From Devosia sp. 66-14 (GTDB lineage: Bacteria; Pseudomonadota; Alphaproteobacteria; Rhizobiales; Devosiaceae), in NCBI GenBank assembly GCA_001899085.1, contig MKVB01000005.1:220916-284915 (forward strand): a DNA stretch of 64,000 bases. The letters run 5' to 3'. Positions within the stretch are counted from its first letter, which is position 1, and every line of letters starts with the position of its first letter. The position numbers and the translations under genes were made by a program. Below the pieces are notes generated by a model that ran no database searches, was not told the DNA's origin, and was given only the letters and a program-made list of their open reading frames with translations. Below, one piece after another: positions 3 to 48,982 of the stretch.

Positions 3-401
3 GCGGTGCGGCTCACCTGGGGCGCGGTGCGTGCTGACCAGGGCCTCGTCACGCTGATGACGCTGCTGCGCGCGGTGTTCATGTGGGTGGCGATCATCGC
101 CATGCTGGGGCTGGCGCAGCGTTACCTCAACCGCGACGGGCCGGTGCTGCGCTTTCTCACCGAAGCGGTGTTCCCTTACTACATCCTGCATCAGACCCTC
201 ATCGTGGCCGTGGGGTTCTGGGTCGGCGGCCTGCTGCTGCCGGTGTGGCAGGAAGCCGGGATCATCACCGTCGCGACGGTCGTCGGCTGCGTGGTGCTGA
301 CCGAAGCGATCAAGCGCCTGCCGCCGCTGCGCCCGCTGTTCGGGCTGCCATGGCGGGCCGAAGCGATCCGGCCCGCGCGACAGGTGGCGATGGCGCGTTA
401 G
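3..401 (+). CDS. Acyltransferase family 3 protein, C-terminal part (5' end outside window)
   Basis: The reading frame is open from the window edge and ends with TAG at 399-401. The visible part has two or three hydrophobic membrane segments and the motif FPYYILHQTLIV, which is typical of the last membrane segments of acyltransferase-3 / OpgC-like membrane enzymes that O-acylate glycans or lipids. The C-terminal tail is short and basic. The gene is convergent with the CobW gene and their stop codons overlap by four bases (398-401). The substrate cannot be told from this fragment. The true start lies upstream of the window; the internal GTG at 6 is probably not the start. Confidence 0.7.
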   Translation, partial: AVRLTWGAVRADQGLVTLMTLLRAVFMWVAIIAMLGLAQRYLNRDGPVLRFLTEAVFPYYILHQTLIVAVGFWVGGLLLPVWQEAGIITVATVVGCVVLTEAIKRLPPLRPLFGLPWRAEAIRPARQVAMAR

Positions 402-2223: not shown

Positions 2224-2254
2224 CGATGTCTCGTTTGCTTAGAGCTGAGCTGGC

Positions 2255-2437
2255 TCAGTGGCAGGGGAAGCCGAGCGCATGGCGCGTATCGTGCGCGCCA
2301 TTGTGGATGGCCATGTCGCTGGCAAAGCCGACGCCGCCGACAAGGACGAAGCCGATAAACAATGCCAGCACACCTGCGATGAGCCGCTGCGAGACAGAAA
2401 GACGGGCGACCGACGCCGTCTGGACCTGAGTGTTCAT
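2255..2437 (-). CDS. cbtB: Cobalt transporter subunit CbtB
   Basis: A 60-residue protein with one membrane segment (about residues 20-42) and the conserved C-terminal CbtB motif HDTRHALGFPCH, whose His and Cys residues are likely metal ligands. It is first in the cbtB-cbtA-cobW operon. The ATG at 2437 has a good Shine-Dalgarno GGAGGG at 2452-2447, eight to nine bases upstream. That site lies in a hairpin arm below the cobalamin riboswitch, so translation is likely controlled by the ligand. The length matches the family. Confidence 0.92.
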   Translation of the reverse strand: MNTQVQTASVARLSVSQRLIAGVLALFIGFVLVGGVGFASDMAIHNGAHDTRHALGFPCH

Positions 2438-2445
2438 ATGCCTGC

Positions 2446-2470
2446 ACCCTCCGTGCGGATGAAAGAGGGC
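2446..2470 (-). promoter_or_regulatory. Ribosome-site-sequestering hairpin (expression platform of the B12 riboswitch)
   Basis: Minus-strand GCCCTC (2470-2465) can pair with GAGGGT (2451-2446), one G-U pair included, across a 13-base loop. The second arm contains the Shine-Dalgarno sequence of cbtB. No U-tract follows, so control is probably at translation rather than termination. The folding is inferred by eye. Confidence 0.6.
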
Positions 2471-2489
2471 TCTTCGCCCGGTTGCACGC

Positions 2490-2677
2490 TGGCAGGTCTC
2501 CTGACTCGCGGGTCACCGTGTTCTCCGGCCTTCCCAACATCCCGAGGGATGTCAGTGGCATAGTCGGAGGCACTCGCCGCTTACAGTTGCGGGGGCAGCC
2601 ACGGATTTGGTCCCTGATGGGTACGCCGCACCGTGTTCCCTTTTGATCCCCTCGCCCGAACGGGTTTGAGGAACCAA
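2490..2677 (-). ncRNA. Cobalamin (B12) riboswitch aptamer
   Basis: On the minus strand, reading toward cbtB, the conserved elements appear in order: GGTTCCTC start, an AAAGGGAA-type segment followed by ACGGTG, then CTGCCCCCGCAACTGTAAG, the segment GAGTGCCTCCGACTATGCC followed by CACTG, and the B12 box GTCAGGAGACCTGCC (2505-2491). This is the classic cobalamin aptamer. It sits directly upstream of cobalt uptake genes, which it should switch off when adenosylcobalamin is plentiful. Identification rests on the primary motifs; a covariance search was not possible here. Confidence 0.95.
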
Positions 2678-2713
2678 CGTAAGGCTATCGTTACGCCGCG
2701 AGAGGGGGCGCGG

Positions 2714-3313
2714 TCAATCTTCCGCCGCGTTGGAATCGGGGTAGCCGACGGTGATGGTATCGACGCGGGCATCGACCTTTTCGAGCAGCGGCTCGCTCGA
2801 GGAGATCTGCATGTCGCCGGAGATGGCATCGACATTGAGATCGGCCGGGTAATCGCCGACGGCGAAGCGGACGCTGACCGAACAGCCGTCGGTCGCCGCT
2901 TCGAGCTTGCCGCCGTCGAAGATAGCGGCGCCGCCATAATCCCAGAAGAAGCCATAGAGCTGGAACGGCCCGCCATTGAGCGCCTCAACCTCCTTGACCG
3001 TCAGGCCCTTCCTGAGGCCGCCCGGCGCCGTATCATCCGGCGGCACGGTGAAATAGGCGACGCGCTCGTGCTTTTCCTCGTCCCACCAGCCGAACTCGAT
3101 GGTCCTCGCGGGGTCGTTGGGAAAGATCGTGGTGGCAAGGACGGTCGAGCCCTCGGGGCCGGGCACATCGCCGGTCACCACATTGTCCTTGCCGAACGCT
3201 TCGATCAGCCGCGCCTCCGAACTGTCGGCGGCGAACGGGCCTTCGCAGGCGATATCGGCAGCCATGGCGGGGGCCGCCAGCAGCAACAAGGGGAACAGGA
3301 CCAGCGCGCGCAT
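2714..3313 (-). CDS. Secreted protein of unknown function
   Basis: A 199-residue protein with a clear Sec signal peptide (MRALVLFPLLLLAAPAMAAD, cleavage after AMA). The mature part is acidic, with two Cys residues (IACEGPF near the new N-terminus and DGCSVSV near residue 140) that could form a disulfide. It has alternating strand-like segments and no recognisable catalytic motif or lipobox. It stands alone between the B12 riboswitch region and a MarR-type gene; no operon partner is evident, as the MarR gene ends 80 bases upstream on the same strand. I do not recognise the family. Confidence 0.75.
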   Translation of the reverse strand: MRALVLFPLLLLAAPAMAADIACEGPFAADSSEARLIEAFGKDNVVTGDVPGPEGSTVLATTIFPNDPARTIEFGWWDEEKHERVAYFTVPPDDTAPGGLRKGLTVKEVEALNGGPFQLYGFFWDYGGAAIFDGGKLEAATDGCSVSVRFAVGDYPADLNVDAISGDMQISSSEPLLEKVDARVDTITVGYPDSNAAED

Positions 3314-3393
3314 GTCGACCTCCGTTGATCAGCCGATTCTAGCTGAGCCCCGTGAGTCTGGGCAGAGCTTGCGGCAGAAGCTGGGCGCCGGGA

Positions 3394-3940: not shown

Positions 3941-5134
3941 ATGAAAGCACGCATCGGCATCGTTGGGGCAGGTTCCGCGGGGCTCGGCCTGGCCCTGGCG
4001 CTGGTCAGGCGCGGCTTCGCACCCGTGGTCTTCGAGAAGCGGACGGAACGGCAGGTGGTCGACGAGGGCATCTTCCTCACCCTCGCCCCCAACGGCCTCA
4101 ACGCACTGCGGGGGCTCGGCCTCGCGGCTGAAGCTCTGCGGCGCGGCGTCGAAACCCGCGCCATCGTACTGCACAACGAGCACGGCAAACCGCTCGGCAC
4201 GGTCGACTATGCCCGCCACGCCTCGCAGTTCGGCGCCCCCTCGGTGACGATCCGGCGCGGCGTACTGGGTGAGATCCTGCTGGCTGCAGCACGGTCGGCG
4301 GGCGTGCCGATTCATTTCGAGGCCGCGGTGAGCGCGGTGACCAATCTCGACAGCGGCGTGGCGGTGACCACGGGTGACGGCGTGACGCACAGCTTCGATG
4401 TGCTGGTGGGGGCGGATGGCCTTCGCTCCACCGTTCGCGCCCTGGTGATGCCCGGGCTGCCGGCGCCCAGTTACAACGGATTGCTGGGCAGCGGCGGTAT
4501 CGTCGACGCACCGGATGTGCCGCCGACCGACGGGCGGATGCTGATGACGTTCGGCCGACGGGCGTTCTTCGGCTACATCAAGGATGCCGGCGGGCCGGTC
4601 TACTGGTTCAACAGCTTTCCCGCCGACGAGAAGCAGGCGCAACTGATCGATCGTCAGGCGGCGCCCGGCTATTTTGCGGCGCTGCACCGGACCGACCCGG
4701 CGATCAACCGGCGGATCATCGCCGCGGCCGCAGCCGAGGTCAGCCGCATCTATCCCGACTTCGACGTGCCGAGCCTGCCTTACTGGTCCAGGGGCCGCGT
4801 CATCCTGATTGGCGATGCGGCGCATGCCGTCACCCCGCATTCGGGCCAGGGTGCCTCCATCGCGCTGGAAGACGCGCTGGTGCTGGCGGCCTGCATCGAT
4901 GCCGAGGCAACGCCCGAGGGGGCTTTCCGCCGCTTCGAGGGGCTGCGGCGCGACCGGGTGGAAGCGGCGGTGCGGCTCGGTCGGCAGGGTGGCGCGCCCA
5001 AGAAAGCACAGGGCTGGCTGGCGCGGCGGGTGCGCGACCTGATGCTGCCGCTGTTCGTGCCGCTCGGGCAGCGGGGGCAGGAACAGCTGTTCGCCTTCCG
5101 CGCCGACGATCTGCCGCTGGTCAAGCCGCGCTGA
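3941..5134 (+). CDS. FAD-dependent monooxygenase (UbiH / salicylate hydroxylase-like)
   Basis: A 397-residue class A flavoprotein monooxygenase. Seen: the dinucleotide-binding GxGxxG (GIVGAGSAGLGLALAL) at the N-terminus, the DG motif (VLVGADGLRSTVRAL) about residue 160, and the GD motif RVILIGDAAHAVTPHSGQGA about residue 285, which contacts the FAD ribose. Such enzymes hydroxylate aromatic rings with NAD(P)H and O2. The start at 3941 is preferred to 3914 because it puts the beta-alpha-beta fold at the very N-terminus and has a GAGG-type ribosome site; 3914 would fall in the palindrome. The substrate is unknown. The adjacent MarR-type gene is its likely regulator. Confidence 0.88.
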   Translation: MKARIGIVGAGSAGLGLALALVRRGFAPVVFEKRTERQVVDEGIFLTLAPNGLNALRGLGLAAEALRRGVETRAIVLHNEHGKPLGTVDYARHASQFGAPSVTIRRGVLGEILLAAARSAGVPIHFEAAVSAVTNLDSGVAVTTGDGVTHSFDVLVGADGLRSTVRALVMPGLPAPSYNGLLGSGGIVDAPDVPPTDGRMLMTFGRRAFFGYIKDAGGPVYWFNSFPADEKQAQLIDRQAAPGYFAALHRTDPAINRRIIAAAAAEVSRIYPDFDVPSLPYWSRGRVILIGDAAHAVTPHSGQGASIALEDALVLAACIDAEATPEGAFRRFEGLRRDRVEAAVRLGRQGGAPKKAQGWLARRVRDLMLPLFVPLGQRGQEQLFAFRADDLPLVKPR

Positions 5135-10029: not shown

Positions 10030-12258
10030 CTAACTCGCCTGGCGCAGAGCCTGCTCGCCCTGCAACAGCCGTTCCAGCTGCGCCAGCCGCAGCGGGCGGG
10101 CGAACAGGTAGCCCTGGAATTCGCGGCAGCCGAGGCGCGACAGCAGCGCCGCCTCCTCGCGCCGCTCGACGCCTTCGGCGGTGACGGCGAGCCCCATGGC
10201 GAACGCATAGATCATGGTGGATTCGACCAGCGCCGCCTGGACCGGGTCGCTGTCGATCTCGGCGACGAGCGAGCGGTCGAGCTTCACCCGGTCGAACTGG
10301 AACTGCTTGAGGTAGCCGATCGAGGAATAGCCGGTGCCGAAATCGTCGAGCGCGATGATGATGCCCGACTGGCGCAACTGCTCGATCAGCCGGATGGCAC
10401 GATCGGGGTGCGAAACGAGGAACGACTCGGTCACCTCGAGCTGCAGCCGGCTGGCAGCGACACCCCATTCCTCGAGCGTCGAAAACACCGTCTGCGGCAG
10501 GGTCGGATTGCGCAGTTGCGCCGGCGAGACGTTGACCGAAATCTTGAGCTCGCCGAGCGGCCCGATCTCCTCGATGGCGCGGCGCAGGGCGAACATGCCG
10601 AGGTCGTCGATCAGGCCCGAGGCCTCGGCCGCCGGAATGAACTCGCCAGGACCCATCGGGCCGGCGGCCCGGCGGTTCCAGCGCATCAGCGCCTCGACCC
10701 CGAGGATCGCCTGGGTACGGAAGTCGATGATCGGCTGGTACTCGAGATCGAACTCGCCGGCTTCGAGGCCGCGGCGAATGTCGGCCTGCAGCTCGATGCG
10801 GCGCCGGCGTTCGTCCTCGATGGCGGGATCGTATTCGACGGTGTGGTTGCCGCCCGTCTCGCGGGCCCGCGCCACGGCGGTCTCGGCCATGCGAATGACG
10901 TTGCCAACGTTATCACGGCGTGCCGGGGCGTCGGCGACGCCGATGCTCAGCCCCACCTTCAGTTTCAGGTTGCCGACTGGCAGCGCATCACCGGCTCCGG
11001 CGAGGATGCGCTCGGCAAAGCCACGCACCGTCGCGCCGGCATCCTCGCCGACGCGCGCCAGCGACAGCTCGGTCGGGCCGGTGCGCGCCAGCACGGCGCC
11101 GCCATCGATAATGGCCTCGAAGCGTTGCGCCAGGGCGATCAGCAGCTCGTTTGCCGCCTCACGGCCATAGAGGCCGACAATGTCCTGCAGGCCGTCGACA
11201 TTGATCTGGCTGATGGCAAGCGGCAGCTCGGCGCGCTTGCGCGGGATCGACTGGGCCAGTTGTTCCTCGAGCCCAAAGCGGCTCAGCAGGCCGGTCGTCC
11301 CGTCGTAGCGGGCGTTGTACCAGTCGCGCTCCTCGGAAACGGTGCGCAGCTTGATCGAGTGGCGGAACGCCGCCAGCACCACGAAGATCAGCACGCCGAT
11401 GACCAGCATCACCAGCACGGCCACCAGCGCGGTATGGGCGAAGGCCGGATCGCCCGGTCGGCGCGGCGGCCAGTCGATGGTGGCGATGGCCGCTCCCGCC
11501 GCGTCGGTGAGCGCCATCGAGTCATGGTCCGGTTTGGGCACCTCGACGAGCCGCGGCAGCGGCAGCTGAAAGCGCGCGGCGACGCCACGCAGCATGACAT
11601 CATCGAGCTGGCGGGCGAGCCAGAGCACGCGGCGCTGCTCCCTGGGAATGCTGGCCTGGCCGGTATTGCCATGCACCACCGCACCGGCCAGGGCGGCGGC
11701 GCCGCGGGCATTGCGCGAGAGATTGGAAACGGTGGCGTCGTCGCCGACCCTGGCGATGCCGCTCTCCAGCCGTTCGAACAGTTGCGGCACGCCGCTGAAC
11801 AGGTCGCCGAGCGTGCCGGTCACCGGTCCGCGGCTGGTCTCGCCGAAGACGATGTTGCCGTTCATGTCGGTGAGGATGGCGGTGTCGTAGGTGTCGGAAA
11901 TGCGGGCCGTGGCGCCCCAGGCGGAATCGAGCCAGGCCGGATTGGGCTCGACATAGGTGTTGATATAGGCCTCGGTCCAGGTCGCCTCGTCGGCGGCGCT
12001 CTCGGCGAGGCCGACCACCAGCGACTCGACGGCGGCGGCGATGGCGCTCTTGCCGCGATCGGAATCGATGGTGTTCATCTCGGCGCTCATCAGGTGCATG
12101 GCGACGAAGACCAGCGCGCAGACGCCGACATAGACGGCGACCGCCGGCAGGGCGATCCAGAAGGTGAAGTTGAGCAAGGCCGAACGATGGCGCCTCGGCC
12201 GGCGCACGCCGCGGGCGCTAGCGGCCAGAGCCGACGTCCTTTGAGCAGCTTTCGGCAA
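10030..12258 (-). CDS. Membrane-bound EAL phosphodiesterase with degenerate GGDEF and periplasmic CHASE4-like domain
   Basis: A 742-residue c-di-GMP protein. Order: cytoplasmic basic N-terminus, membrane segment about residues 29-55, a periplasmic sensor domain (about 56-260, CHASE4-like, with DEATWTEAYINTY), a second membrane segment about 270-292, GGDEF, then EAL. The cyclase motif is GPTEL (ARTGPTELSLA) instead of GGDEF, so this domain is probably regulatory. The EAL domain keeps EALMRW, VNVSPAQL, LEVTESFL, DDFGTGYSSIGYLKQ and AEGVE, so it should hydrolyse c-di-GMP. The start is TTG at 12258; a GTG at 12207 is an alternative, as no ATG precedes the first membrane segment. It is convergent with zur. 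Confidence 0.85.
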   Translation of the reverse strand: MPKAAQRTSALAASARGVRRPRRHRSALLNFTFWIALPAVAVYVGVCALVFVAMHLMSAEMNTIDSDRGKSAIAAAVESLVVGLAESAADEATWTEAYINTYVEPNPAWLDSAWGATARISDTYDTAILTDMNGNIVFGETSRGPVTGTLGDLFSGVPQLFERLESGIARVGDDATVSNLSRNARGAAALAGAVVHGNTGQASIPREQRRVLWLARQLDDVMLRGVAARFQLPLPRLVEVPKPDHDSMALTDAAGAAIATIDWPPRRPGDPAFAHTALVAVLVMLVIGVLIFVVLAAFRHSIKLRTVSEERDWYNARYDGTTGLLSRFGLEEQLAQSIPRKRAELPLAISQINVDGLQDIVGLYGREAANELLIALAQRFEAIIDGGAVLARTGPTELSLARVGEDAGATVRGFAERILAGAGDALPVGNLKLKVGLSIGVADAPARRDNVGNVIRMAETAVARARETGGNHTVEYDPAIEDERRRRIELQADIRRGLEAGEFDLEYQPIIDFRTQAILGVEALMRWNRRAAGPMGPGEFIPAAEASGLIDDLGMFALRRAIEEIGPLGELKISVNVSPAQLRNPTLPQTVFSTLEEWGVAASRLQLEVTESFLVSHPDRAIRLIEQLRQSGIIIALDDFGTGYSSIGYLKQFQFDRVKLDRSLVAEIDSDPVQAALVESTMIYAFAMGLAVTAEGVERREEAALLSRLGCREFQGYLFARPLRLAQLERLLQGEQALRQAS

Positions 12259-12334: not shown

Positions 12335-13171
12335 TCAGGCCGAGGCCAGAGCTGCCTTCTTTGCCAGGCGTGTCTTGATGCTCTCGACGTCGGCGCGCGG
12401 CGTCGCGGCGAACAGCGAGCGGGTATAGGGGTGCTCGGGATTGGAGAACACCTTGTCGCGCGTCCCCTGCTCCACCGCCTCGCCCAGATACATCACCATC
12501 ACCTCATCGGCGATGTATTTCACCACGCTGAGATCGTGGCTGATGAACACGTAGGTGAGCCCGAACTCGTCCTGCAGGTCGGCCAGGAGGTTGAGGATCT
12601 GCGCCTGCACCGACAGGTCGAGCGCCGACACCGGCTCGTCGAGCACCAGCAGCGATGGCTTGAGGATGATGGCGCGGGCAATGGCGATGCGCTGGCGCTG
12701 GCCGCCCGAGAACATGTGCGGATAGCGGTTGAAGTGCTCGGGCTGCAGCCCGACCTTGACCAGCATGTCGAGAGCCCGCTCGCGGCGCTCGGCGGCCGAC
12801 ATCTTGGTGTTGAGCAGCAGCGGCTCCATCAGCACATTGCCGATCTTCTGGCGCGGGTTCAGCGAGCCATAGGGGTTCTGGAAGACGATCTGCACCTTGC
12901 GGCGCATGGCGGCGGTAACGCCGGTCTTCTTGATGTCGATGGTTTCGCCGTCGATCAGCAACTGCCCGTCGGTCTGGCGGTCGATCAGCGTGAGGATGCG
13001 CGCCAGGGTGGATTTGCCCGAACCGGACTCCCCGACAATGGCGAGAGTCTTGCCCTGCTCGAGCTTGAAGCTGACGCCCTTGACCGCGTGCACGGTGCGG
13101 CCGCCGCCGAACAGCGAACCGCCGATATGATAGTCGCGCACCAGGTTCCTGGCCTCGAGGACAGTGGCCAT
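12335..13171 (-). CDS. dppF: Dipeptide ABC transporter ATP-binding protein DppF
   Basis: A 278-residue ABC ATPase of the Dpp/Opp type. Walker [14 protein letters not shown]-loop VQIVFQNPYGSLNPRQ, signature FSGGQRQRIAIARAI, Walker B LLVLDEPVSALD and H-loop FISHDLSVVKYIAD are all present, followed by the C-terminal oligopeptide-transporter extension (HPYTRSLFAATP). The start at 13171 overlaps the DppD stop (TGATG), making DppF the last gene of the operon. The frame is open for another 175 codons upstream only as a shadow of dppD. Confidence 0.93.
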   Translation of the reverse strand: MATVLEARNLVRDYHIGGSLFGGGRTVHAVKGVSFKLEQGKTLAIVGESGSGKSTLARILTLIDRQTDGQLLIDGETIDIKKTGVTAAMRRKVQIVFQNPYGSLNPRQKIGNVLMEPLLLNTKMSAAERRERALDMLVKVGLQPEHFNRYPHMFSGGQRQRIAIARAIILKPSLLVLDEPVSALDLSVQAQILNLLADLQDEFGLTYVFISHDLSVVKYIADEVMVMYLGEAVEQGTRDKVFSNPEHPYTRSLFAATPRADVESIKTRLAKKAALASA

Positions 13172-14007
13172 CACACCGCCTCCTCGAAATTGGCGCCGGT
13201 AATGGTGGGCAGCCGGTCGCCGGTGGCATTGTCGGGCAAAGCCGCCAGCAGCGCGCGGGTGTAGTTGCTCTTCGGCGCGGTGAAGAGTTCGAGCACGCCC
13301 GCCTCCTCCATCTTGCGGCCCTTGTACTGCACCACGACGCGGTCGGCGGTTTCGGCGACGACGCCGATATTGTGGGTGATCATGATCAGCCCCATGCCGT
13401 GCTCGGACTGCAGCCGCACCAGGAGGTCGAGGATCTGCTTCTGGATGGTCACGTCGAGCGCGGTGGTCGGCTCGTCCGCGATCAGCAGCTTGGGATTGCA
13501 GGCGATCGCCATGGCGATCATGACGCGCTGGTTCTGGCCGCCCGACATCTGGTGCGGATAGGATTTCAGCCGTTCGGCCGGGTTGGGAATGCCGACCTGA
13601 TCGAGCAGTTCGACGGCGCGGGCCCGGCGCCGCTGCCTGTCCATGCCGAGATGGAAGCGCAGCACCTCCTCGATCTGGAAGCCCACGGTGAAGCACGGGT
13701 TGAGGCTGGTCATCGGCTCCTGGAAGATCATGGCGACATCCTTGCCGATGATCTTGCGCCTGTCGGCTGCCGACATGGCCAGGAGGTTCTTGCCATCGAA
13801 CTCCATCTTGTCGGCGGTGACCGTGGCGGTCGGCGGCAACAGGCCCATGACGGCCAGCATGGCGACCGACTTGCCCGAACCGGACTCGCCGACAATGGCC
13901 AGCACTTCGCGGGCGTCGACGTAAAGGTCGATGCCTTTGACGGCGTTGAACACGCCGACAGATGTATCGAAGCTGACGGTGAGGTTTTTGACTTCGAGCA
14001 GATGCAT
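13171..14007 (-). CDS. dppD: Dipeptide ABC transporter ATP-binding protein DppD
   Basis: A 278-residue ABC ATPase paired with DppF. Walker [14 protein letters not shown]-loop [17 protein letters not shown], signature [15 protein letters not shown], Walker [15 protein letters not shown] and H-loop [10 protein letters not shown] are visible, with a C-terminal TRALLAALP peptide-transporter segment. The start at ATG 14007 ([13 protein letters not shown]) is chosen because it begins directly with the first strand of the ATPase fold and lies four bases after the dppC stop. The gene would energise dipeptide import with DppF. Confidence 0.93.
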
Positions 14008-14011
14008 CGCC

Positions 14012-14917
14012 TCAGCTCCGCTTGAGCTTGGGATCGAGCGCATCGCGCAGCCCGTCGCCGACGAGGTTGATGGCCAGGACGGTGATCAGGATGGCGAGGC
14101 CAGGCATGGTGACGATCCACCAGGCGCTGGTGATGAACTCACGGGCGCGCGCCAGCATGGTGCCCCATTCCGGGGTCGGGGGCTGCGCCCCCATGCCGAG
14201 AAAGCCGAGCGCCGCCGCTTCGAGAATGGCGTTGGAGAAGCTCAGCGTCGCCTGGACGATCAGCGGCCCGAGGCAGTTGGGCAGGATGGTGACGAACATC
14301 AGCCGGATGTGGCTGGCGCCTGCCACCTTGGCCGAGGTGACATATTCGCGGCTCTTTTCGCTGAGCACCGCGGCGCGGGTCAGGCGGGCGAAATGCGGCT
14401 GCAGGACCAGCGCAATGGCCAGCATGGCGTTGAACAGGCCGGGGCCGAGGATCGCCACCAGCACCAACGCCAGCAAGAGCGAGGGGAAAGCGAGGATGAT
14501 ATCCATGACGCGCATGATCAGCGCATCGACCCAGCCACGGAAATAGCCGGCGAGAAGGCCCAGCGTGACGCCGACGATGAGCGCGCCGGTGACGACGATG
14601 AAGCCGATCATCAGCGAATAGCGCGAGCCGTGGATCAGTCGCGAGAGGATGTCGCGGCCGACCTCGTCGGTGCCGAGGAAGAATTGCGGCTGCGTGCCGC
14701 CGGCCCATGGCGGCGCCATGCGGATGAACTCGCGGAACTGCTGGTCGGGCGAGAACGGCGCCAGCACCGGCGCGAAGAGCGCAACCAGGATCAGCAGCAC
14801 GAACACGGCGAGGCCGAGCACAGCGCCGTGGTTCATCGAGAAATAGTACCAGAACTCGCGCAGCCCGCTGAAGCGGCCGGGAGCGACGGACGTGGTGGTG
14901 GTGGTTTCGGTGGCCAT
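14012..14917 (-). CDS. dppC: Dipeptide ABC transporter permease DppC
   Basis: A 301-residue permease. A Thr-rich cytoplasmic N-terminus precedes the first membrane segment (LGLAVFVLLILVALFAPVLA). The characteristic periplasmic loop follows (LGTDEVGRDILSRLIHGSRY), and the EAA-type coupling motif is EYVTSAKVAGASHIRLMFVTI. Six membrane segments match DppC/OppC. The start at 14917 overlaps the dppB stop by one base. Together with DppB it forms the membrane channel. Confidence 0.93.
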   Translation of the reverse strand: MATETTTTTSVAPGRFSGLREFWYYFSMNHGAVLGLAVFVLLILVALFAPVLAPFSPDQQFREFIRMAPPWAGGTQPQFFLGTDEVGRDILSRLIHGSRYSLMIGFIVVTGALIVGVTLGLLAGYFRGWVDALIMRVMDIILAFPSLLLALVLVAILGPGLFNAMLAIALVLQPHFARLTRAAVLSEKSREYVTSAKVAGASHIRLMFVTILPNCLGPLIVQATLSFSNAILEAAALGFLGMGAQPPTPEWGTMLARAREFITSAWWIVTMPGLAILITVLAINLVGDGLRDALDPKLKRS

Positions 14918-15924
14918 CACTGCACCCTGATGCGCGGATTGATGACGGCGTAGAGGATGTCGACGATGAGGTTCACCGCCATGACGATCAACGCGATGAG
15001 CAGCAGGCCCGACTGCACCGAGACGTAGTCGCGCTTGGAAATCGAGTCGATCATCCATTTGCCGATGCCCGGCCAGGAAAAGATCGTCTCGGTCAGGATG
15101 GCGCCGGCCATCAGCAGCCCGACCTGGAGGCCGATCGTGGTGACCACCGGGATCAGGGCGTTGCGGAACGCATGGATGCCGACGACGCGCCTGGGTTCCA
15201 GCCCCTTGGCGCGGGCGGTGCGGACATAGTCCTCGCCCAGCACTTCCAGCATGGCGGAGCGGGTCTGGCGGGCGATGACGGCGAGCGGAATGGTGCCCAG
15301 CACGATCGCCGGCAGGATCAGGTGCCGCAGCGCCGAAACGAACCCGTCGGGCTTGCCGGCCAGCAGGCTGTCGATCAGCATGAAGCCGGTGACGCGCGGG
15401 AAGAAGAAGTTGAGGGCGATACGGCCGGAAACCGGGGTCCAGCCGAGATAGCCGGAAAAGAAGATGATGAGCAGCAGCCCCCACCAGAAGATCGGCATCG
15501 AGTAGCCGGTGAGCGCCACGCCCATGGTGATCTGGTCGAACCACGAGCCGCGCTTGATGGCGGCGAAGATGCCGGCGGGAATGCCCAGCGCCACGGCGAT
15601 CAGCATGGCGAACAGCGCCAGTTCGACGGTTGCCGGAAACAGCGTCAGGAACTCATCGATCACCGGCCGCTTGGTGGCCAGCGAGACGCCGAAATTGCCC
15701 TGCAGGATGCCGGCGACGTAGTTGAAGTACTGCTGCCAGATCGGCAGGTTGTAGCCGAACTGTTCCTTCAGGATCTCGTAGCGTTCGGGGGTGACGCCGT
15801 GCTGGCCGGCCATCGCGAGGATGGGGTCGCCGGGAAGCAGGCGGATGAAGGCAAACGACGCGATCGTGATGCCGATGATGGTCGGCACGATCAGGGCGAG
15901 CTTCTGAAGGACAAATCGCAGCAT
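14917..15924 (-). CDS. dppB: Dipeptide ABC transporter permease DppB
   Basis: A 335-residue permease beginning MLRFVLQKLALIVPTIIG, the typical DppB N-terminal membrane segment. The motifs FIRLLPGDPI, GNFGVSLATKRPV and the EAA-type loop DYVRTARAKGLEPRRVVGIH are visible, with six membrane segments in all. ATG 15924 is preferred to the TTG at 15936, which lies against the hairpin; no strong Shine-Dalgarno is visible for either. A large hairpin (15937-15964) separates it from dppA and may lower its translation relative to dppA. Confidence 0.92.
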   Translation of the reverse strand: MLRFVLQKLALIVPTIIGITIASFAFIRLLPGDPILAMAGQHGVTPERYEILKEQFGYNLPIWQQYFNYVAGILQGNFGVSLATKRPVIDEFLTLFPATVELALFAMLIAVALGIPAGIFAAIKRGSWFDQITMGVALTGYSMPIFWWGLLLIIFFSGYLGWTPVSGRIALNFFFPRVTGFMLIDSLLAGKPDGFVSALRHLILPAIVLGTIPLAVIARQTRSAMLEVLGEDYVRTARAKGLEPRRVVGIHAFRNALIPVVTTIGLQVGLLMAGAILTETIFSWPGIGKWMIDSISKRDYVSVQSGLLLIALIVMAVNLIVDILYAVINPRIRVQ

Positions 15925-15936
15925 TGGGTACGCCAA

Positions 15937-15981: not shown

Positions 15982-17577
15982 TTATTCGGTCACGTCGACA
16001 TTGTCGAAGCGGTGAATGCCGAGCGGGTCCATGGTGTAGCCCTGAACGCGCTTGTTCATCGGCATGAAGACCTTGGAGTGCGCCATGGTCAGGGCCGGCT
16101 CTTCGGCTTTGAAGATTTCCTGGGCCTTGGTGTAGAGCGCAGTGCGCTCAGCCTGGTCGGAAACCTTCTTGGCGTCCTGGATGGCCTTCTCGAAGTCGTC
16201 GTTGCACCAGCTCGAGTAGTTGGACACGCCAATGGCCGAGCAGGAGAACAGCGTCGCAAAGAAGTTGTCCGGATCACCGTTGTCGCCGGTCCAGCCGATC
16301 TGGAACGCACCCGGGCGGTCCTTCTGCTTGCCGCGCTCGCGGTACTCGGTCCACTCGTAGGTGACGATGTTGGCAGTGACGCCGACCGCGGCCCAGTCGG
16401 CCTGGATCATCTCGGCGGCGCGCTGCGCGTTCGGGTTGTACGGACGGCTGACCGGCATGGCCCACAGGTCGAGCGTCAGGCCCGAGACGCCGGCATCGGC
16501 CAGCAGCTTCTTGGCGCCTTCCGGATCGTACGGCGTATCGACGATCTTGTCGTCATAGGACCACATGGTCGGCGGGATCAGGTTCTTGGCTGCCTGGCCG
16601 GCGCCCTGGTAGACCGCATCGACCAGCGCCTGCTTGTTGATGGCCATCGAGAGCGCCTTGCGGACGTTCACGTTATCCATCGGAGCGACGGTGGTGTTGT
16701 AGGACATGTAGCCGATGTTCAGGCCTTCCTGCTCCATCACCTGCAGGTTGGCGTCAGCCTTGAGCCCTTCGATATCGGCCGGGGCCGGATAGCTCATGAT
16801 GTCGCATTCGCCGGCCTTGAGCTTCTGCGCGCGCACCGCCGGATCGGTGGTGATGGCGAAGATCAGGTCGTCGATCGCCACCTTGCCGCGCCAGTAGTCG
16901 GCGAAGGCAGCGTAGCGGATGACGGCATCGGTCTGGTAGTCGACGAAGGTGAAGGCGCCGGTGCCGATCGGCTTGTTGGCGAAGTCGGCCAGGTTGCCCG
17001 AAGCGGCGAGCTGGTCGGCATATTCCTTGGAGACGATCGACGCGAAGTCCATGCCCAGGTTGGCCAGCATCGGCGCGTTGGGCTCGTTCAGCGTGATCTT
17101 GACGGTCAGGTCATCGACCTTCTCGATCGACTTGAGGAACTTGGGCATGTCCATGCCCTGGAAGTAGTCCCAGCTCAGGCCCTCGAGGTAGGCGAACCAC
17201 GGGTTGTCCTGCTTCCACTGGCGCTCGAACGAGAAGATCACGTCGTCGGCGTTCAGGTCGCGGGTCGGGGTGAAATACGAAGTGGTGTGGAACTTCACGC
17301 CCGGACGGAGGTGGAAGGTATATTCCAGGCCGTCAGCGGAAATTTCCCACTTCTCGGCGAGGCCCGGCTGCACGGCGGTGCCGCCATGCTCGAACTCGAC
17401 GAGGCGATCATAGATGGTGCGCGAGCTGGCGTCGAAGTCGTTACCGCCGGTGGTCGGACCGGGGTCGAAGTGCGCCGGCGAGGCTTCCGAGCAGAACACG
17501 AGCTGCTTGGCATAGACGCTGCCGCCCATCACCGCGACAAGCGCAGTGGCGGCGAGCAGGGTTTTCATCAAATGCAT
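15982..17577 (-). CDS. dppA: Periplasmic dipeptide-binding protein DppA
   Basis: A 531-residue SBP family 5 protein that closely follows the enterobacterial DppA pattern from memory. Seen: signal peptide (MKTLLAATALVAVMGGSVYA), LVFCSEASPAHFDP, FHLRPGVKFHTTSYF, NLIPPTMWSYDD, MIQADWAAVGV, GWTGDNGDPDNFFATLFSC and the C-terminal YTMDPLGIHRFDNV. The Cys pair of the DppA type (FSCSAIG, SSWCNDDF) is present. The start is ATG 17577, with GGGAGA eight to nine bases upstream; MKTLL at 17568 is the alternative. It heads dppABCDF. A RutR-like palindrome lies about 120 bases upstream. Confidence 0.93.
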   Translation of the reverse strand: MHLMKTLLAATALVAVMGGSVYAKQLVFCSEASPAHFDPGPTTGGNDFDASSRTIYDRLVEFEHGGTAVQPGLAEKWEISADGLEYTFHLRPGVKFHTTSYFTPTRDLNADDVIFSFERQWKQDNPWFAYLEGLSWDYFQGMDMPKFLKSIEKVDDLTVKITLNEPNAPMLANLGMDFASIVSKEYADQLAASGNLADFANKPIGTGAFTFVDYQTDAVIRYAAFADYWRGKVAIDDLIFAITTDPAVRAQKLKAGECDIMSYPAPADIEGLKADANLQVMEQEGLNIGYMSYNTTVAPMDNVNVRKALSMAINKQALVDAVYQGAGQAAKNLIPPTMWSYDDKIVDTPYDPEGAKKLLADAGVSGLTLDLWAMPVSRPYNPNAQRAAEMIQADWAAVGVTANIVTYEWTEYRERGKQKDRPGAFQIGWTGDNGDPDNFFATLFSCSAIGVSNYSSWCNDDFEKAIQDAKKVSDQAERTALYTKAQEIFKAEEPALTMAHSKVFMPMNKRVQGYTMDPLGIHRFDNVDVTE

Positions 17578-17692
17578 GATGGTTGTCTCCCGAAAAGCAT
17601 TGCGCCCCGGCATTCAATGGCGGAGTCCCTTCCACCGGCCGGAGCTTGGCGCGCAACAAAGCGCTTTTTCTTCCGCCACGCAATGGCCCAGT

Positions 17693-17708
17693 TTGACCGA
17701 TTGGTCAA
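17693..17708. promoter_or_regulatory. RutR-like operator upstream of dppA
   Basis: TTGACCGATTGGTCAA matches the Escherichia coli RutR consensus TTGACCAnnTGGTCAA at 13 of 14 defined positions and is flanked by one more T and A on each side. Two other RutR-like sites in this window lie before pyrimidine catabolic genes, and a RutR-like gene is at 40.4 kb. Other TetR-family proteins bind similar sites, so the assignment is an inference. Confidence 0.6.
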
Positions 17709-17854
17709 AGCAGCGTCATGCGCAATGCCGTTTCAACAACCGCGCCAACGCCGCAAAGCCGCGTTTCTCAGGCGGTAAAGCGGTTGCGCAGGTGGGATCG
17801 ATTTCACACGCCGGCGATTGACGCTCGCGACGCCGTGCCGCAAATGATCCGTGC

Positions 17855-18244
17855 ATGAGCCAGTCCATTGCCACAATCGCCCTCGTCGTCGCCGACTACG
17901 ACGACGCCATCTCGTTCTATGTCGACAAACTGGGATTCGCTTTGCTGAGCGATCTCGATATGGGCGGCGGCAAGCGCTGGGTCACGGTGGCGCCAGCCGG
18001 CGGCGGCGCGAGGCTGCTGCTGGCCAAGGCCGACGGGGCCGAACAGTCGGCACATATCGGCAACCAGACCGGCGGGCGGGTCGGCTTTTTTCTCGAAACC
18101 GACGACTTCGCGCGGGACCATGCCAACTACCTGCAGCGCGGGGTGAAGTTCCTCGAGCCGCCGCGGCACGAGGCCTATGGTTCGGTGGCGGTGTTCGAGG
18201 ACCTTTACGGCAATAAATGGGATCTGCTGGAGCCCAGGGGCTGA
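17855..18244 (+). CDS. VOC (glyoxalase/bleomycin resistance superfamily) protein
   Basis: A 129-residue protein with the beta-alpha-beta-beta-beta repeat of the vicinal-oxygen-chelate fold: IALVVADYDDAISFYVDKLG at the start, GGRVGFFLETDDFARDHANY in the middle, and GSVAVFEDLYGNKWDLLEP at the end, which carries the conserved glutamate-containing FxDxxGNxWDL motif. The substrate is unknown; members include small dioxygenases, isomerases and resistance proteins. It is a single gene upstream of the aldo/keto reductase, 84 bases away. No clear ribosome site is seen before ATG 17855. Confidence 0.85.
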   Translation: MSQSIATIALVVADYDDAISFYVDKLGFALLSDLDMGGGKRWVTVAPAGGGARLLLAKADGAEQSAHIGNQTGGRVGFFLETDDFARDHANYLQRGVKFLEPPRHEAYGSVAVFEDLYGNKWDLLEPRG

Positions 18245-30888: not shown

Positions 30889-31326
30889 GCTTGTTTACGA
30901 TGGGCGGGAGAAGGCTTGGGCGGTGTGGCGACAATATGAACCGAAAATGAACGCGACCCTTCCAAGTGCAACCGTTGCCGAAATGCATCAGTAGCACTAC
31001 GTGGCTCCATACGGATTCTGTGCGAGATTCCAAAAACTTGCGCGGAGTTTGCCGATGACTCCGTGGCCGGGACCAAAGACGAAGTTTTTCGCGCCGAAGT
31101 GGAAATCCATCTCCCGAGCCCCCGGCCGATCGACTGAATGAGGCATGATTTCGGTTGCTGAAGCCGGCATAACGACTGTCTGACGCCGCCCGCCCCGGCC
31201 TGCCCCCTGCCGGCCACGAGGCCCGTCGCCGCGCTCGCAAATTCCATTTTTGACCAATTGATAAAATTTCTGAGCTGCGCTAGCGTTCTCAGTCTGGAAT
31301 GGCTCTAAGGAGAGAGGGAGCTGCCG
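30889..31326. other. Intergenic region with rlpA and preT promoters
   Basis: A 438-base spacer between divergent genes. It carries the RutR-like box at 31250-31265 before preT. The rest contains only weak frames; the best is 37 codons at 31110-30997 on the minus strand, without a usable ribosome site, and it is not called. Confidence 0.5.
31250..31265. promoter_or_regulatory. RutR-like operator upstream of preT
   Basis: TTGACCAATTGATAAA keeps the complete left half TTGACCA of the RutR consensus; the right half TGATAAA matches TGGTCAA at four of seven positions. It lies 62 bases before the preT start, in an AT-rich promoter-like region. Confidence 0.6.
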
Positions 31327-32676
31327 ATGAGCGGGGGAATGCTCAAGCAAGGCATCGCATCCGGGCGACTCGAGCCCGGCCAGTACGCGCGTAATTTTTC
31401 CGATCTGCATCCGGCGCTCGACCGGCACGAGGCCTTTGTCGAGGCCGACCGCTGCTACTTCTGTTTCGACGCGCCCTGCATGAACGCCTGCCCCACCGAG
31501 ATCGACATCCCGATGTTCATCCGGGAGATCTCGACGGATAACCCGCTGGGGGCAGCCGAGACGATCTTCGAGCAGAACATCCTGGGCGGCATGTGCGCCC
31601 GAGTCTGCCCCACCGAGCAGCTATGCGAGGATGCTTGCGTGCGCATGGAGGCCGAGGGCAAGCCGGTCAAGATCGGCCAGCTGCAGCGCTACGCCACCGA
31701 CATCGCCATGGAGGAGAACGCGCAGTTCTTCACCCGTGCCCCCGCCACCGGCAAGACGGTTGCGGTGGTCGGCGCCGGCCCGTCGGGTCTCGCGGCCGCG
31801 CATCGGCTGGCGGTGCACGGGCACGACGTGGTGATCTACGATGCACGCCCCAAGGCGGGCGGCCTCAACGAATATGGCATCGCCTCGTACAAGACGCCCG
31901 ATGGCTTCGCGCAGGCGGAGGTCGACTACGTCACCTCGATCGGCGGCATCGAGATCGAACTGGGCCAGGCGCTCGGGCGCGAGCTGTCGCTCGACGGGCT
32001 GCTGGACCGCCATGACGCGGTGTTTCTCGGGGTCGGGCTGGGCGGCGTCAACGCGCTCCGGGCCGAAGGCGAAACGGACGGCTCGCACGGGCTTGCCGAT
32101 GCCGTCGATTTCATCGCCGAACTGCGCCAGAGCGACGATCTGTCCAAGCTGCCGGTCGGTCGACGGGTGGTGGTGATCGGCGGCGGCATGACGGCGATCG
32201 ATGCGGCGGTGCAGTCAAAGCTGCTCGGCGCCGAAGAGGTGACGATCTGCTACCGCCGCGGGCAGGAGCATATGAACGCCTCGAGCTTCGAGCAGGATCT
32301 CGCGGCGTCGAAAGGCGTCACCATCCGGCACTGGCTGCAGCCCAGGCGCGTGCTGAGCGAGAACGGCAAGGTGAGCGGCATCGAGCTCGAATATACCGAG
32401 CTCAAGGATGGTCGCCTCACCGGCATGGGCCACACCCTGACCCTGCCGGCCGACCAGGTGTTCAAGGCCATCGGGCAGACGCTCGAGGACGAGACGGCAG
32501 CCGGGCTGGCCCTGACCGCCGGCCGCATCGAAACCGATGTCGAGGGCCGCACCTCGCGGCCTGGCGTCTGGGCCGGCGGCGACTGCATCGCTGCTGGCGA
32601 CGACCTGACGGTGACCGCGGTGGCGCAGGGGCGCGACGCGGCCGAGAGCATCAACCGCCATCTCGCTGGAAACTGA
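31327..32676 (+). CDS. preT: NAD-dependent dihydropyrimidine dehydrogenase subunit PreT
   Basis: A 449-residue flavoprotein that passes electrons from NAD(P)H to PreA in reductive pyrimidine breakdown. The N-terminal Cys-rich domain (CYFCFDAPCMNACP at about residues 44-57, CARVCPTEQLCEDAC about 91-105) binds [4Fe-4S] clusters. It is followed by GAGPSGLAAAHRLA (FAD site, about residue 147) and VVVIGGGMTAIDAAV (NAD(P) site, about 281), then GVWAGGDCIAAGDDLTVTAV near the end. This is the order found in the GltD-like half of dihydropyrimidine dehydrogenase. It is 11 bases from preA. Confidence 0.93.
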   Translation: MSGGMLKQGIASGRLEPGQYARNFSDLHPALDRHEAFVEADRCYFCFDAPCMNACPTEIDIPMFIREISTDNPLGAAETIFEQNILGGMCARVCPTEQLCEDACVRMEAEGKPVKIGQLQRYATDIAMEENAQFFTRAPATGKTVAVVGAGPSGLAAAHRLAVHGHDVVIYDARPKAGGLNEYGIASYKTPDGFAQAEVDYVTSIGGIEIELGQALGRELSLDGLLDRHDAVFLGVGLGGVNALRAEGETDGSHGLADAVDFIAELRQSDDLSKLPVGRRVVVIGGGMTAIDAAVQSKLLGAEEVTICYRRGQEHMNASSFEQDLAASKGVTIRHWLQPRRVLSENGKVSGIELEYTELKDGRLTGMGHTLTLPADQVFKAIGQTLEDETAAGLALTAGRIETDVEGRTSRPGVWAGGDCIAAGDDLTVTAVAQGRDAAESINRHLAGN

Positions 32677-32687: not shown

Positions 32688-34007
32688 ATGGCTGACATCC
32701 GCAACAATTTCGTCGGGATCAAATCGCCCAATCCGTTCTGGCTGGCTTCGGCGCCGCCGACCGACAAGGCGTATAATGTCGAGCGCGCCTTCAAGGCGGG
32801 CTGGGGCGGCGTGGTGTGGAAGACGCTGGGCGAGGAAGGCCCGCCGGTGGTGAACGTCAACGGGCCGCGCTACGGCGCGATCTGGGGCGCCGACCGGCGG
32901 CTGCTCGGCTTCAACAATATCGAGCTGATCACCGACCGCGACCTGCGGAAGAACCTGCAGGAGATCAAGCAGGTCAAGAAGAACTGGCCCGATCGCGCCG
33001 TGGTCGTATCGATCATGGTGCCGTGTGAAGAAGACGCCTGGAAAGCGATCCTGCCGCTGGTGGAAGAAACCGAGGCGGACGGGATCGAGCTCAATTTCGG
33101 CTGCCCGCACGGCATGAGCGAGCGCGGCATGGGCGCCGCGGTCGGCCAGGTGCCGGAATATGTCGAGATGGTGGTGCGCTGGTGCAAGCAGTACTCGCGC
33201 ATGCCTGTCATCACCAAGCTGACGCCGAACGTCACCGATGTGCGCCGCCCGGCCCGGGCCGCCAAGAATGGCGGCACCGATGCGGTATCGCTGATCAACA
33301 CCATCAACTCGATTACCGGCGTCGACCTCGACAATTTCGCACCGATGCCGACGATCGACGGCAAGGGTACGCATGGCGGCTATTGCGGCCCGGCGGCCAA
33401 GCCCATCGCGCTGCACATGGTGGCCGATATCGCCCGCGATCCCGAGACCTATGGCCTGCCGATCTCGGGTATTGGCGGGGTCACCACCTGGCGCGACGCG
33501 GCGGAGTTCATGGCGCTGGGCGCCGGGAACGTCCAGGTCTGTACCGCCGCCATGGTCTATGGCTTCAAGATCGTCGAGGAGATGATCTCGGGGCTGCAGA
33601 ACTGGATGGACGAAAAGGGCCACGCGACGCTCGACGACTTCACCGGCCGGGCCACCCGCAACGTCACCGACTGGCAGTTCCTCAACCTCAACTACATCAC
33701 CAAGGCGCATATCGACCAGGACAAGTGCATCAGCTGCGGCCGGTGCCACATTGCCTGCGAAGACACCTCGCACCAGGCCATTACCAAACAGAAGGACGGC
33801 AAACGCCACTTCGAGGTGATGGACGACGAGTGCGTCGGCTGTAACCTGTGCGTCAATGTCTGCCCGGTGGAAGACTGCATCACCATGATCCAGCTCGAGC
33901 CCGGCATGCTCGATCAGCGGACCAAGAAGGTGGTGGAGCCGACCTACGCCAACTGGACGACGCATCCGAACAACCCGATGCGCAAGTCGGTCGAGCCGGC
34001 GGAGTAA
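32688..34007 (+). CDS. preA: NAD-dependent dihydropyrimidine dehydrogenase subunit PreA
   Basis: A 439-residue FMN enzyme that reduces uracil and thymine to the dihydropyrimidines. It has a TIM barrel like dihydroorotate dehydrogenase, with GIELNFGCPHGMSERGMGAA (catalytic Cys loop) and ISGIGGVTTWRDAAEFMALG (FMN phosphate site). The C-terminal ferredoxin domain carries CISCGRCHIACED and CVGCNLCVNVCPVEDC, two [4Fe-4S] clusters. GAGGAGGGA precedes ATG 32688. Forms a heterodimer with PreT. It is convergent with the DUF1232 gene. Confidence 0.95.
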   Translation: MADIRNNFVGIKSPNPFWLASAPPTDKAYNVERAFKAGWGGVVWKTLGEEGPPVVNVNGPRYGAIWGADRRLLGFNNIELITDRDLRKNLQEIKQVKKNWPDRAVVVSIMVPCEEDAWKAILPLVEETEADGIELNFGCPHGMSERGMGAAVGQVPEYVEMVVRWCKQYSRMPVITKLTPNVTDVRRPARAAKNGGTDAVSLINTINSITGVDLDNFAPMPTIDGKGTHGGYCGPAAKPIALHMVADIARDPETYGLPISGIGGVTTWRDAAEFMALGAGNVQVCTAAMVYGFKIVEEMISGLQNWMDEKGHATLDDFTGRATRNVTDWQFLNLNYITKAHIDQDKCISCGRCHIACEDTSHQAITKQKDGKRHFEVMDDECVGCNLCVNVCPVEDCITMIQLEPGMLDQRTKKVVEPTYANWTTHPNNPMRKSVEPAE

Positions 34008-39413: not shown

Positions 39414-40424
39414 TCACGGCGGCGGCGGGCTGCCTGCCGCAGCGCGGTCCGCCAGTTGCCGCCTGTGCACCGCGACCCAGCGCCGGAAAGCCGACTGATA
39501 GAGCGACAGCGGCCAGGGCTGGGGGTGGCTGAGGAACCAGCTGTTGTGAAACGCCTCGAACCAGGCCCGCTCGATCAGCGGCGCGTTGGAGGCCTCGCGT
39601 TCGCGGCCATAGCCGGCCCCCGGATAGACGGTCATCTCGCCCAGATAAATGTCGTCGCCATCGATGAGGAAATCCACCCGAACATGATCGATGCCGCGGC
39701 TCAGCCGCCGGGCCAGAGCCATGGCTTCGAAGTAACTTGGTGGCAGCACATAATCGGCCGGCAGATGCGTGCTGTCGGGGACACCGATCTTGTTGGGCAG
39801 GCGTCGCCCCGCCCCATCGAAATGCGCCTGCTGCTCGGTGTCGGCATGCTGGTTGTGCGAAACGAAGCCGGCCGACACCACGCCGTCATGGCCACGGAAG
39901 GTGTATTCGACCAGGGCGTTGCCGTTGCCGATGCGCGGCTCGACGAACAGCCGGCGCGGCACGTCGCGATAGGCCCACTGGTCCTGGATATAGTGCGAGC
40001 GCTGCAGCCAGCCGGCCAGCAGCGCGTTGAGCTCGGCCCGCGGCAGCGGCGTGCGCTCGGGGAAGTGGTTCATCCGAAAGCCGTGACTGGCCTTGATGAC
40101 GTTGCCGGGAACGACGAGTTCCTCGGGCAGATCCTCGGGCCTGGTGCCGACCCAGATCGGCATCGCGAGGTGGATATCGGGGAAGTGCTCGGCGGCCCAG
40201 GCCTTGGTCGCCAGCTTGTCGGTGAACATGACGAAGCGCGGATCGTGATCGAAGAGCTTGCGCCACTGCACCAGGTCGGTGTGCTCGGTGGGTTGAGCGA
40301 GGTTGGGCAGCCGCCCGCGATGGCGCTTGAACTCGCGCCTCAGCCCACGGTGGCGCACGAGGCAGAATGCCTGCACCACGGCAAAGATCACGCGGTCGAT
40401 TGCGCTGATCCCGGTGTCGCTCAC
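39414..40424 (-). CDS. TupA-like ATP-grasp protein (paralogue 2)
   Basis: A 336-residue paralogue of the preceding gene, showing the same order: VQWRKLFDHDPRFVMFTDKL, VIKASHGFRMNHFPE (ATP loop), GIDHVRVDFLIDGDDIYLGE, and LSHPQPWPLSLYQSAFRRWV. The close similarity of the ends, and the divergence in the middle, suggest an old tandem duplication. It lies 90 bases upstream of paralogue 1 and overlaps the RutR-like gene by four bases, so all three may be on one leftward transcript. Confidence 0.8.
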   Translation of the reverse strand: MSDTGISAIDRVIFAVVQAFCLVRHRGLRREFKRHRGRLPNLAQPTEHTDLVQWRKLFDHDPRFVMFTDKLATKAWAAEHFPDIHLAMPIWVGTRPEDLPEELVVPGNVIKASHGFRMNHFPERTPLPRAELNALLAGWLQRSHYIQDQWAYRDVPRRLFVEPRIGNGNALVEYTFRGHDGVVSAGFVSHNQHADTEQQAHFDGAGRRLPNKIGVPDSTHLPADYVLPPSYFEAMALARRLSRGIDHVRVDFLIDGDDIYLGEMTVYPGAGYGREREASNAPLIERAWFEAFHNSWFLSHPQPWPLSLYQSAFRRWVAVHRRQLADRAAAGSPPPP

Positions 40425-41113
40425 GTCTTCGGCAGCAACCCATGCAGGAACAGGTTCTCGAGGAAGCGGGCGGCGTCCTCGAAGCGGCCTTCGCCGCCGC
40501 GATCCTTGCCGAGCACGGCGCGGACCTGCACGTCGAAATCGGCATAGTGCTGGGTGGTGGCCCAGATCGAGAAGATCAGGTGGTAGGGGTCGGTGCGGAC
40601 GATCTTGCCGGCATCCATCCAGCCCTCGATCACCTTGGCCTTGTCGTCGACCAGCGCCTTGAGGTCGCTCTCCAGCATTTCGAGCACGCGCGGCGCGCCC
40701 TGCAGCATCTCGTTGGCGAAGAGCCGGCTCTGGCGCGGGTAGTCGCGACTCATCTCGAGCTTGCGACGCAGATAGGAGCGCAGTTCCGGCACCGGGTCGC
40801 CGACCGAATCGATCTCGCGCAGCGGGGCCAGCCAGATGTCGAGCATCTCGGCCAGCAGGCGCTGGTAGATCTCTTCCTTGCGCGGAAAATAGTAAAGCAG
40901 GTTGGGCTTACTCATCCCTGCTGCTTCGGCGATCTGATCGATGGTGGCGCCGCGGAATCCCTCGCGGCTGAACACGTCGAGCGCCGCCTCGAGGATGACT
41001 TCCTGCTTCTCGCGCTGGATGCGCGTCTGCGCCCGCGGGCGCTTCGATGGCGCTGCCTTTGCGCCCCCTTTGCCGCCTTCGGTCTCCAGCATTTTCACCT
41101 TGATCGGCGGCAT
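40421..41113 (-). CDS. rutR: TetR-family regulator, RutR-like
   Basis: A 230-residue regulator with helix-turn-helix QIAEAAGMSKPNLLYYFPRK at about residues 60-79 and a ligand domain containing SRDYPRQSRLFANEMLQGAP, which resembles the RutR/YcdC C-terminal domain. RutR senses uracil/thymine and controls pyrimidine use. It lies between the two ATP-grasp genes and, divergently, the aminotransferase gene. An RutR-like site lies between its start and that gene, supporting the name. Start could be 41113 or 41092. Confidence 0.82.
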   Translation of the reverse strand: MPPIKVKMLETEGGKGGAKAAPSKRPRAQTRIQREKQEVILEAALDVFSREGFRGATIDQIAEAAGMSKPNLLYYFPRKEEIYQRLLAEMLDIWLAPLREIDSVGDPVPELRSYLRRKLEMSRDYPRQSRLFANEMLQGAPRVLEMLESDLKALVDDKAKVIEGWMDAGKIVRTDPYHLIFSIWATTQHYADFDVQVRAVLGKDRGGEGRFEDAARFLENLFLHGLLPKT

Positions 41114-41128
41114 GGGAGTGATAACGTT

Positions 41129-41144
41129 TTTTCCAACTGGTCAA
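41129..41144. promoter_or_regulatory. RutR-like operator between rutR and the aminotransferase gene
   Basis: TTTTCCAACTGGTCAA matches the RutR consensus TTGACCAnnTGGTCAA at 12 of 14 defined positions, with the right half perfect. It lies 15 bases before the rutR start and 83 bases before the aminotransferase start. Confidence 0.7.
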
Positions 41145-41227
41145 ATTTCTGGATAACACATCCAAAGGTCAAGCGCCAAATATACTTGACCTTGAAACTC
41201 AACAAATAGCCTCCGGGGGAGTCCAAG

Positions 41228-48978: not shown

Positions 48979-48982
48979 GCCG

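Follow-up and report, generated by a model that had tools for sequence, protein, structure and literature searches.

A dipeptide importer of Devosia as a very probable target of the uracil-sensing regulator RutR

Introduction

RutR, a member of the TetR family, is known as a pyrimidine regulator, and to our knowledge the dpp operon of Escherichia coli, encoding the dipeptide importer DppABCDF, is not among its targets. In the E. coli protein, residues K52 and K62 have been described as DNA contacts and residues W77, Y97, W167, Q171 and Q179 as uracil contacts, and the binding of uracil is expected to remove the regulator from DNA (PMC10891134). Predicted RutR regulons have been described for 68 proteobacterial genomes, with a mean of 10.9 target genes per genome and with taxon-specific motifs (RegPrecise; Leyn et al. 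2016, PMC5343134). The term dpp is absent from the main text of that report, its target tables and the RegPrecise database lying outside this check, and a literature search returned a link between RutR and dpp in no title or abstract start. The link is apparently unreported, though a database may already list it.

The locus described here lies in a stretch of 64,000 nucleotides from Devosia sp. 66-14, hereafter the window. It resembles the E. coli system in encoding a TetR-family RutR with the same uracil- and DNA-contact residues, in the palindrome of about 16 bp that serves as the motif, and in the presence of a site at the rutR promoter. It differs from the E. coli rut and carAB operators in that the associated catabolic genes are of the reductive preTA type, and from E. 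coli RutR in that the motif is also found before dipeptide, amino-acid-type and nucleoside-type importers. The dipeptide importer itself resembles E. coli DppABCDF (DppA, PDB 1dpp and 8z1y), with all five subunits recognised and with an Arg and an Asp of DppA kept, the difference being the predicted RutR-type operator before the Devosia genes. With an operator kept in front of a dipeptide importer, and others before amino-acid-type and nucleoside-type importers, uracil would become a signal for food that is not pyrimidine, and a link between RutR and dpp would help to account for the control of such importers.

The box upstream of dppA

The dppA gene (15982..17577, minus strand; 531 aa) begins at a start codon at 17577 preceded by the ribosome-binding site GGGAGAC, both of which are conserved, and the alternative in-frame ATG at 17613 is the less likely start. 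Upstream of this start codon lies the 16-mer TTGACCGATTGGTCAA (17693-17708), which the addition of one base per side extends to the 18-bp palindrome TTTGACCGATTGGTCAAA (17692..17709, without strand), a candidate RutR operator kept upstream of dppA in relatives. The palindrome consists of the arms TTTGACC and GGTCAAA around the uneven centre GATT. Its midpoint lies 123 bp upstream of the dppA start codon, from which the 18-mer is separated by 114 bases and the 16-mer by 115.

Sites were scored with a position weight matrix built from 10 distinct rutR-promoter sites, together with their reverse complements, of named loci with labels other than Devosia. The matrix contains no dppA site, and is mildly circular in that the pattern for picking the rutR-promoter sites was written after the sites of the window had been seen. 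The dppA box scored 31.3 bits (31.3-31.9 bits across matrix runs) and ranked first in the window, followed by the box before preT (TTTGACCAATTGATAAAA; 31249..31266, without strand; 29.3 bits) and the box between rutR and a class-III aminotransferase gene (TTTTTCCAACTGGTCAAA; 41128..41145, without strand; 27.8 bits). The fourth-best site reached 9.8 bits, and the best score among 40 first-order Markov simulations of the 64-kb window was 16.1 bits. When searched with up to three mismatches, the 16-mer gave four matches in the window, representing two places matched on both strands each, where 0.28 matches were expected.

Across the 5.72-Mb genome, the degenerate palindromic pattern WTTKWYCNNNNGRWMAAW occurred at seven places and its reversed control at none. 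Three of these places precede dppA, preT and rutR, and the others stand in front of a branched-chain-type ABC transporter (its ATPase and permease genes), a gene for a Peripla_BP_6 binding protein, an SBP_bac_3 transporter and an epimerase-family gene, so that six of the seven stand before dppA, preT, rutR or transporter genes. The pattern is not clean in every genome, since it has matches in all 136 family genomes and its control is equally high in some of them (in G158, 11 matches versus 15 for the control). The loose pattern TTGACCNNNTGGTCAA with two mismatches did not discriminate genome-wide (97 forward and 107 reverse matches versus 133 and 130 for the control), and a sample of 385 genomes of the class contained 9 with the perfect 18-mer pattern TTTGACCNNNTGGTCAAA, including the source genome.

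The preliminary description of this DNA had placed a RutR-like box at 17693..17708, about 120 bases before dppA, had ranked it as the best such site in the window, and had reported two other sites, one upstream of preT and one in the interval that separates rutR from the aminotransferase gene. Present results agree with it in each of these respects. It had also proposed scanning the genome with a matrix, and the degenerate motif places the dppA box among its seven sites; likewise, loss of the site in close relatives was to count against its reading, and the site proved to be kept in them, as follows.

Conservation of the box

Of the 42 Devosiaceae loci examined, 41 have a box of at least 20 bits before dppA, while none of 3109 control stretches from the same loci (overlapping 250-bp stretches, with a largest score of 14.9 bits) reached 15 bits. 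Within the genus, 18 of 19 genomes had such a site at most 250 bp before dppA. The exception, G007, lacks the dppA box but has rutR and the boxes before both of the transporters discussed below (Bmp-type and SBP_bac_3). In the rest of the family, in which 68 genomes had a DppA match at E<=1e-130, all 23 loci examined carried the box. It is kept even where DppA is only 51-54% identical; the closest named DppA, from Devosia sp. RYN_484, is 95% identical.

Among 80 named loci, 24 had a site of at least 18 bits before dppA (three Devosia and 21 of the 77 others), versus 2 of 5189 control stretches, and 29 had a site of at least 15 bits, versus 5 of 5189. Distribution outside Devosia-labelled loci is therefore patchy at the 18-bit threshold. 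The 21 box-bearing loci there include Rhizobium, Shinella, Aurantimonas, Oricola and Pleomorphomonas, as well as Ensifer BR816, in which the site lies elsewhere, at -71, and may be due to chance. None of 12 Mesorhizobium-labelled loci reached 15 bits before dppA, despite the presence of RutR in all eight Mesorhizobium genomes tested for it. In Ensifer IC3342 and Sinorhizobium medicae the promoter region is retained, and the box in it looks, by eye, decayed. A chance palindrome as the origin of the dppA box is ruled out by its conservation together with the control stretches.

RutR and its assignment to the box

The rutR gene (40421..41113, minus strand) encodes a predicted uracil-sensing TetR-family regulator, for which the best curated family is TIGR03613 RutR (246 bits against a cut-off of 368; E 3e-73), followed by the RutR model NF011584 (223 against 230). 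As these scores are below the NCBIfam cut-offs, the gene is named on the strength of its homology to E. coli RutR (99 identities in 201 aligned residues; E 2e-61), of the contact residues, all seven of which (K52, K62, W77, Y97, W167, Q171 and Q179) are kept, and of gene context. The protein encoded at 40.4 kb is also the single one in the genome that matches RutR at E<=1e-30.

The motif is present in all 30 Devosiaceae rutR promoters examined, and in 26 of these the rutR box is identical. Among 30 named loci, 28 (two of them Devosia) carry a rutR-promoter site that departs from a set pattern at one position at most, the misses being Rhizobium NFR03 and Hoeflea. The rutR promoters of Mesorhizobium and Rhizobium share the off-centre G of the dppA box.

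From 50 of the 80 named loci, 49 genomes were searched for RutR and 46 of them had a match, including all 14 of the tested named genomes with a box of at least 18 bits, and the three genomes that had no RutR match had no 15-bit site before dppA. Because 46 of the 49 genomes have RutR, the co-occurrence of box and regulator has little power as a test.

From these sequence comparisons we infer, with a probability of roughly 80%, that the dppA box is the operator of the RutR encoded at 40.4 kb and that dppABCDF belongs to a RutR regulon together with reductive pyrimidine breakdown and with nucleoside-type and amino-acid-type importers. RutR of Devosia would then, very probably, control a dipeptide importer as well. 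The preliminary description had read the box as tying dpp to the pyrimidine regulon, and this part of its reading is strongly supported by the conservation of the box, its match to rutR promoters and the contact residues of the regulator; its further suggestion that Dpp carries a ureido or beta-alanine compound found no support, as discussed below.

Other genes carrying the motif

The box at 31249..31266 precedes preT (31327..32676, plus strand), taken from its position to be the small subunit of dihydropyrimidine dehydrogenase, a GltD-type reductase that scores below curated cut-offs and adjoins preA, and preA itself (32688..34007, plus strand), the dihydropyrimidine dehydrogenase (NF006183 PreA, 735 bits against a cut-off of 335). 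The same box also precedes the positionally equivalent genes of L129, L130 and L263, which are named by position and length. On the other side of the rutR box lie plus-strand genes recognised by Pfam, including the class-III aminotransferase (41228-42559), an aldehyde dehydrogenase (42629-44125), a DUF559 gene (44129-44782), an M20 hydrolase (44785-46035), an amidohydrolase-family gene that is a dihydropyrimidinase by context (46716-48170), and the genes of an ABC transporter whose binding protein is of the NMT1 type (48205-52031; all ORFs but 48995-49864 scanned). The DUF559 or endonuclease-like gene (PF04480) is situated inside this pyrimidine operon, and the gene calls of G002 (L128) contain no gene at that place.

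Two further transporter operons share the motif. A box of at least 15 bits stands before a Bmp-type (nucleoside-type) ABC transporter in all 17 of the genus genomes with a match at E<=1e-80, and the operon of this transporter in the source genome includes a cytidine deaminase gene and, further on, a DeoC-family gene. A box at the same threshold stands before an SBP_bac_3 (amino-acid-type) transporter in 13 of the 16 genus genomes that have the gene, the misses being G006, G009 and G004; the loci compared are L265 (G000:C1:1294529) and L284-L299.

With boxes before both nucleoside-type and amino-acid-type transporters, the regulon looks like one of organic-nitrogen scavenging. A possible, if tentative, extension is that RutR of Devosiaceae acts as a general switch for such scavenging, in which free uracil would be a proxy for the nucleic acid of dead cells and RutR would act as a sensor of debris, not as a pyrimidine regulator. 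Such a switch would open dipeptide, amino-acid and nucleoside import together with pyrimidine breakdown.

RutR-type sites were also observed at several other loci. L132 (G000:C9) carries two boxes about 8 kb apart (4580-4597 and 12871-12888), one preceding the genes for the ATPase and permease components of a branched-chain-type ABC transporter and the other lying between a Peripla_BP_6 binding protein gene and a divergent OpuAC-type binding protein gene. The Peripla_BP_6 protein may belong to this transporter, and a chemoreceptor gene is present upstream in the same locus, at 327-3335. A 23.6-bit box precedes an N-formylglutamate-amidohydrolase-like gene and an amino-acid permease gene in L258 (G014; 3722) and L261 (G003; 3933), the latter also having a glutamine-synthetase-like gene behind the box. 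A strong site (24.9 bits) at G000:C3:440813-440830 (L135, L266) precedes an epimerase-family gene that shows no apparent connection with the use of nitrogen.

Proposed sense of control and the divergent VOC gene

The likeliest sense of dpp control is repression relieved by uracil. A RutR dimer would occupy the dppA box when uracil is scarce and, by extension from E. coli RutR, would leave the DNA once uracil is bound. Uracil would thereby relieve the repression of dpp together with that of pyrimidine breakdown and other uptake, and the products of nucleic-acid breakdown would turn on scavenging of organic nitrogen, dipeptides included.

The main competing proposal on sense, which we consider unlikely, is that RutR activates dpp at low uracil, so that uracil turns dipeptide import down. 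Most TetR-family regulators repress, and the box of rutR itself begins 31-33 bp before the rutR start codon in 16 of the 30 Devosiaceae loci, a position that fits repression. The arrangement at dppA is what favours activation: when 30 upstream regions from the 42 Devosiaceae loci were aligned (G007 and five regions with the box farther from dppA were among those left out), a kept CATTGC appeared downstream of the box and, about 17 bases further on, GCTTTGTTG, forming a promoter-like pair. The box lies just upstream of this candidate promoter and not over it, which makes activation or weak repression possible, and E. coli RutR is described as indirectly activating carAB by displacing PepA (PMC10891134).

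Repression relieved by uracil is taken here to act on dppA, although the box could instead serve the divergent VOC (and AKR) genes with dppA as a bystander, a very improbable reading. The VOC/glyoxalase-superfamily gene (17855..18244, plus strand; PF00903) is a possible second target. Of the 42 Devosiaceae loci, 38 have a VOC match in divergent orientation to dppA, and the box lies only 20-24 bp from the VOC start codon in G018, G005, G009, G006 and G004, five genomes in which double control of dppA and VOC is possible. However, the spacing between dppA and the start of the 18-mer is 108-134 bp at 36 of the 41 box-bearing Devosiaceae loci, and 29 of the 30 boxes of the two other transporter operons likewise lie 107-137 bp before the start codon. 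The box is also kept in the absence of a VOC match at L107, L116 and L124 (L126 ends too close to tell), and neither VOC nor AKR was matched (tblastn, E<=1e-8) at the 21 non-Devosia loci with a box of at least 18 bits. Retention of the box where these genes are unmatched indicates that dppA is its common partner.

The Dpp system and its substrate

On the minus strand, dppA (NF043070 DppA, 698 bits; 8z1y at E 6e-191 and 1dpp at E 8e-188) is followed by the permease genes dppB (14917..15936; NF008161 DppB) and dppC (14012..14932; NF008160 DppC) and the ATPase genes dppD (13171..14043; NF008246) and dppF (12335..13171; NF008453/NF043071). Coordinates of dppB, dppC and dppD are those of the ORFs as scanned, whereas the start of dppF, whose matches were obtained on the ORF 12335-13696, was placed by codon score. 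The best NCBIfam matches are Dpp models in the order A-B-C-D-F; all five scores are below equivalog cut-offs, and the subfamily model NF008453 was passed, by DppF only. In DppA, R378 and D432, which we take to be the anchors of a dipeptide ligand, are invariant in nine aligned DppA, and these positions differ between the sequences of PDB 8z1y and 8z1z. The retention of both residues is most simply read as pointing to dipeptides as the substrate.

The preliminary description had proposed that this Dpp system carries a beta-alanine- or ureido-containing compound. A role under RutR in importing a pyrimidine-derived compound, such as N-carbamoyl-beta-alanine or a beta-alanyl dipeptide, would agree with N-carbamoyl-beta-alanine being an isomer of Gly-Gly and with the position of dpp near rutR, about 8-24 kb from start to start, in six genus genomes (G002, G016, G001, G014, G011 and G000); the distance in a seventh, G015, is 62 kb. 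Against it are the invariant Arg and Asp of DppA and the occurrence of the motif before the general SBP_bac_3 transporter as well, which means that no special Dpp substrate is needed to explain the box. The proposal is accordingly unsupported, and we regard such a role as highly doubtful. No peptidase or pyrimidine gene was found beside dpp among the seven flanking genes scanned at four loci of box-bearing species outside Devosiaceae.

E. coli senses dipeptides as well as pyrimidine deoxynucleosides through Tap, and the pyrimidine response is described as independent of DppA (PMC12584664), leaving DppA unsupported as a pyrimidine receptor. The sensing of both kinds of compound through Tap fits foods that occur together and not one shared carrier. 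As loose context, accumulation of Dpp proteins, and also of a binding protein for uracil uptake, has been reported for an hfq mutant of Sinorhizobium meliloti (PMC3484140).

Binding of the palindrome by another TetR- or GntR-type regulator is scarcely probable, for while boxes without RutR are hard to look for when 46 of the 49 genomes tested have a RutR match, the motif also precedes rutR, preT and the Bmp-type importer with cytidine deaminase in its operon, and the genome encodes one RutR-like protein at E<=1e-30.

Directly downstream of dppF lies a CHASE4-GGDEF-EAL gene (10030-12258 of the window, minus strand), and a GGDEF gene occupies the same place in G002.
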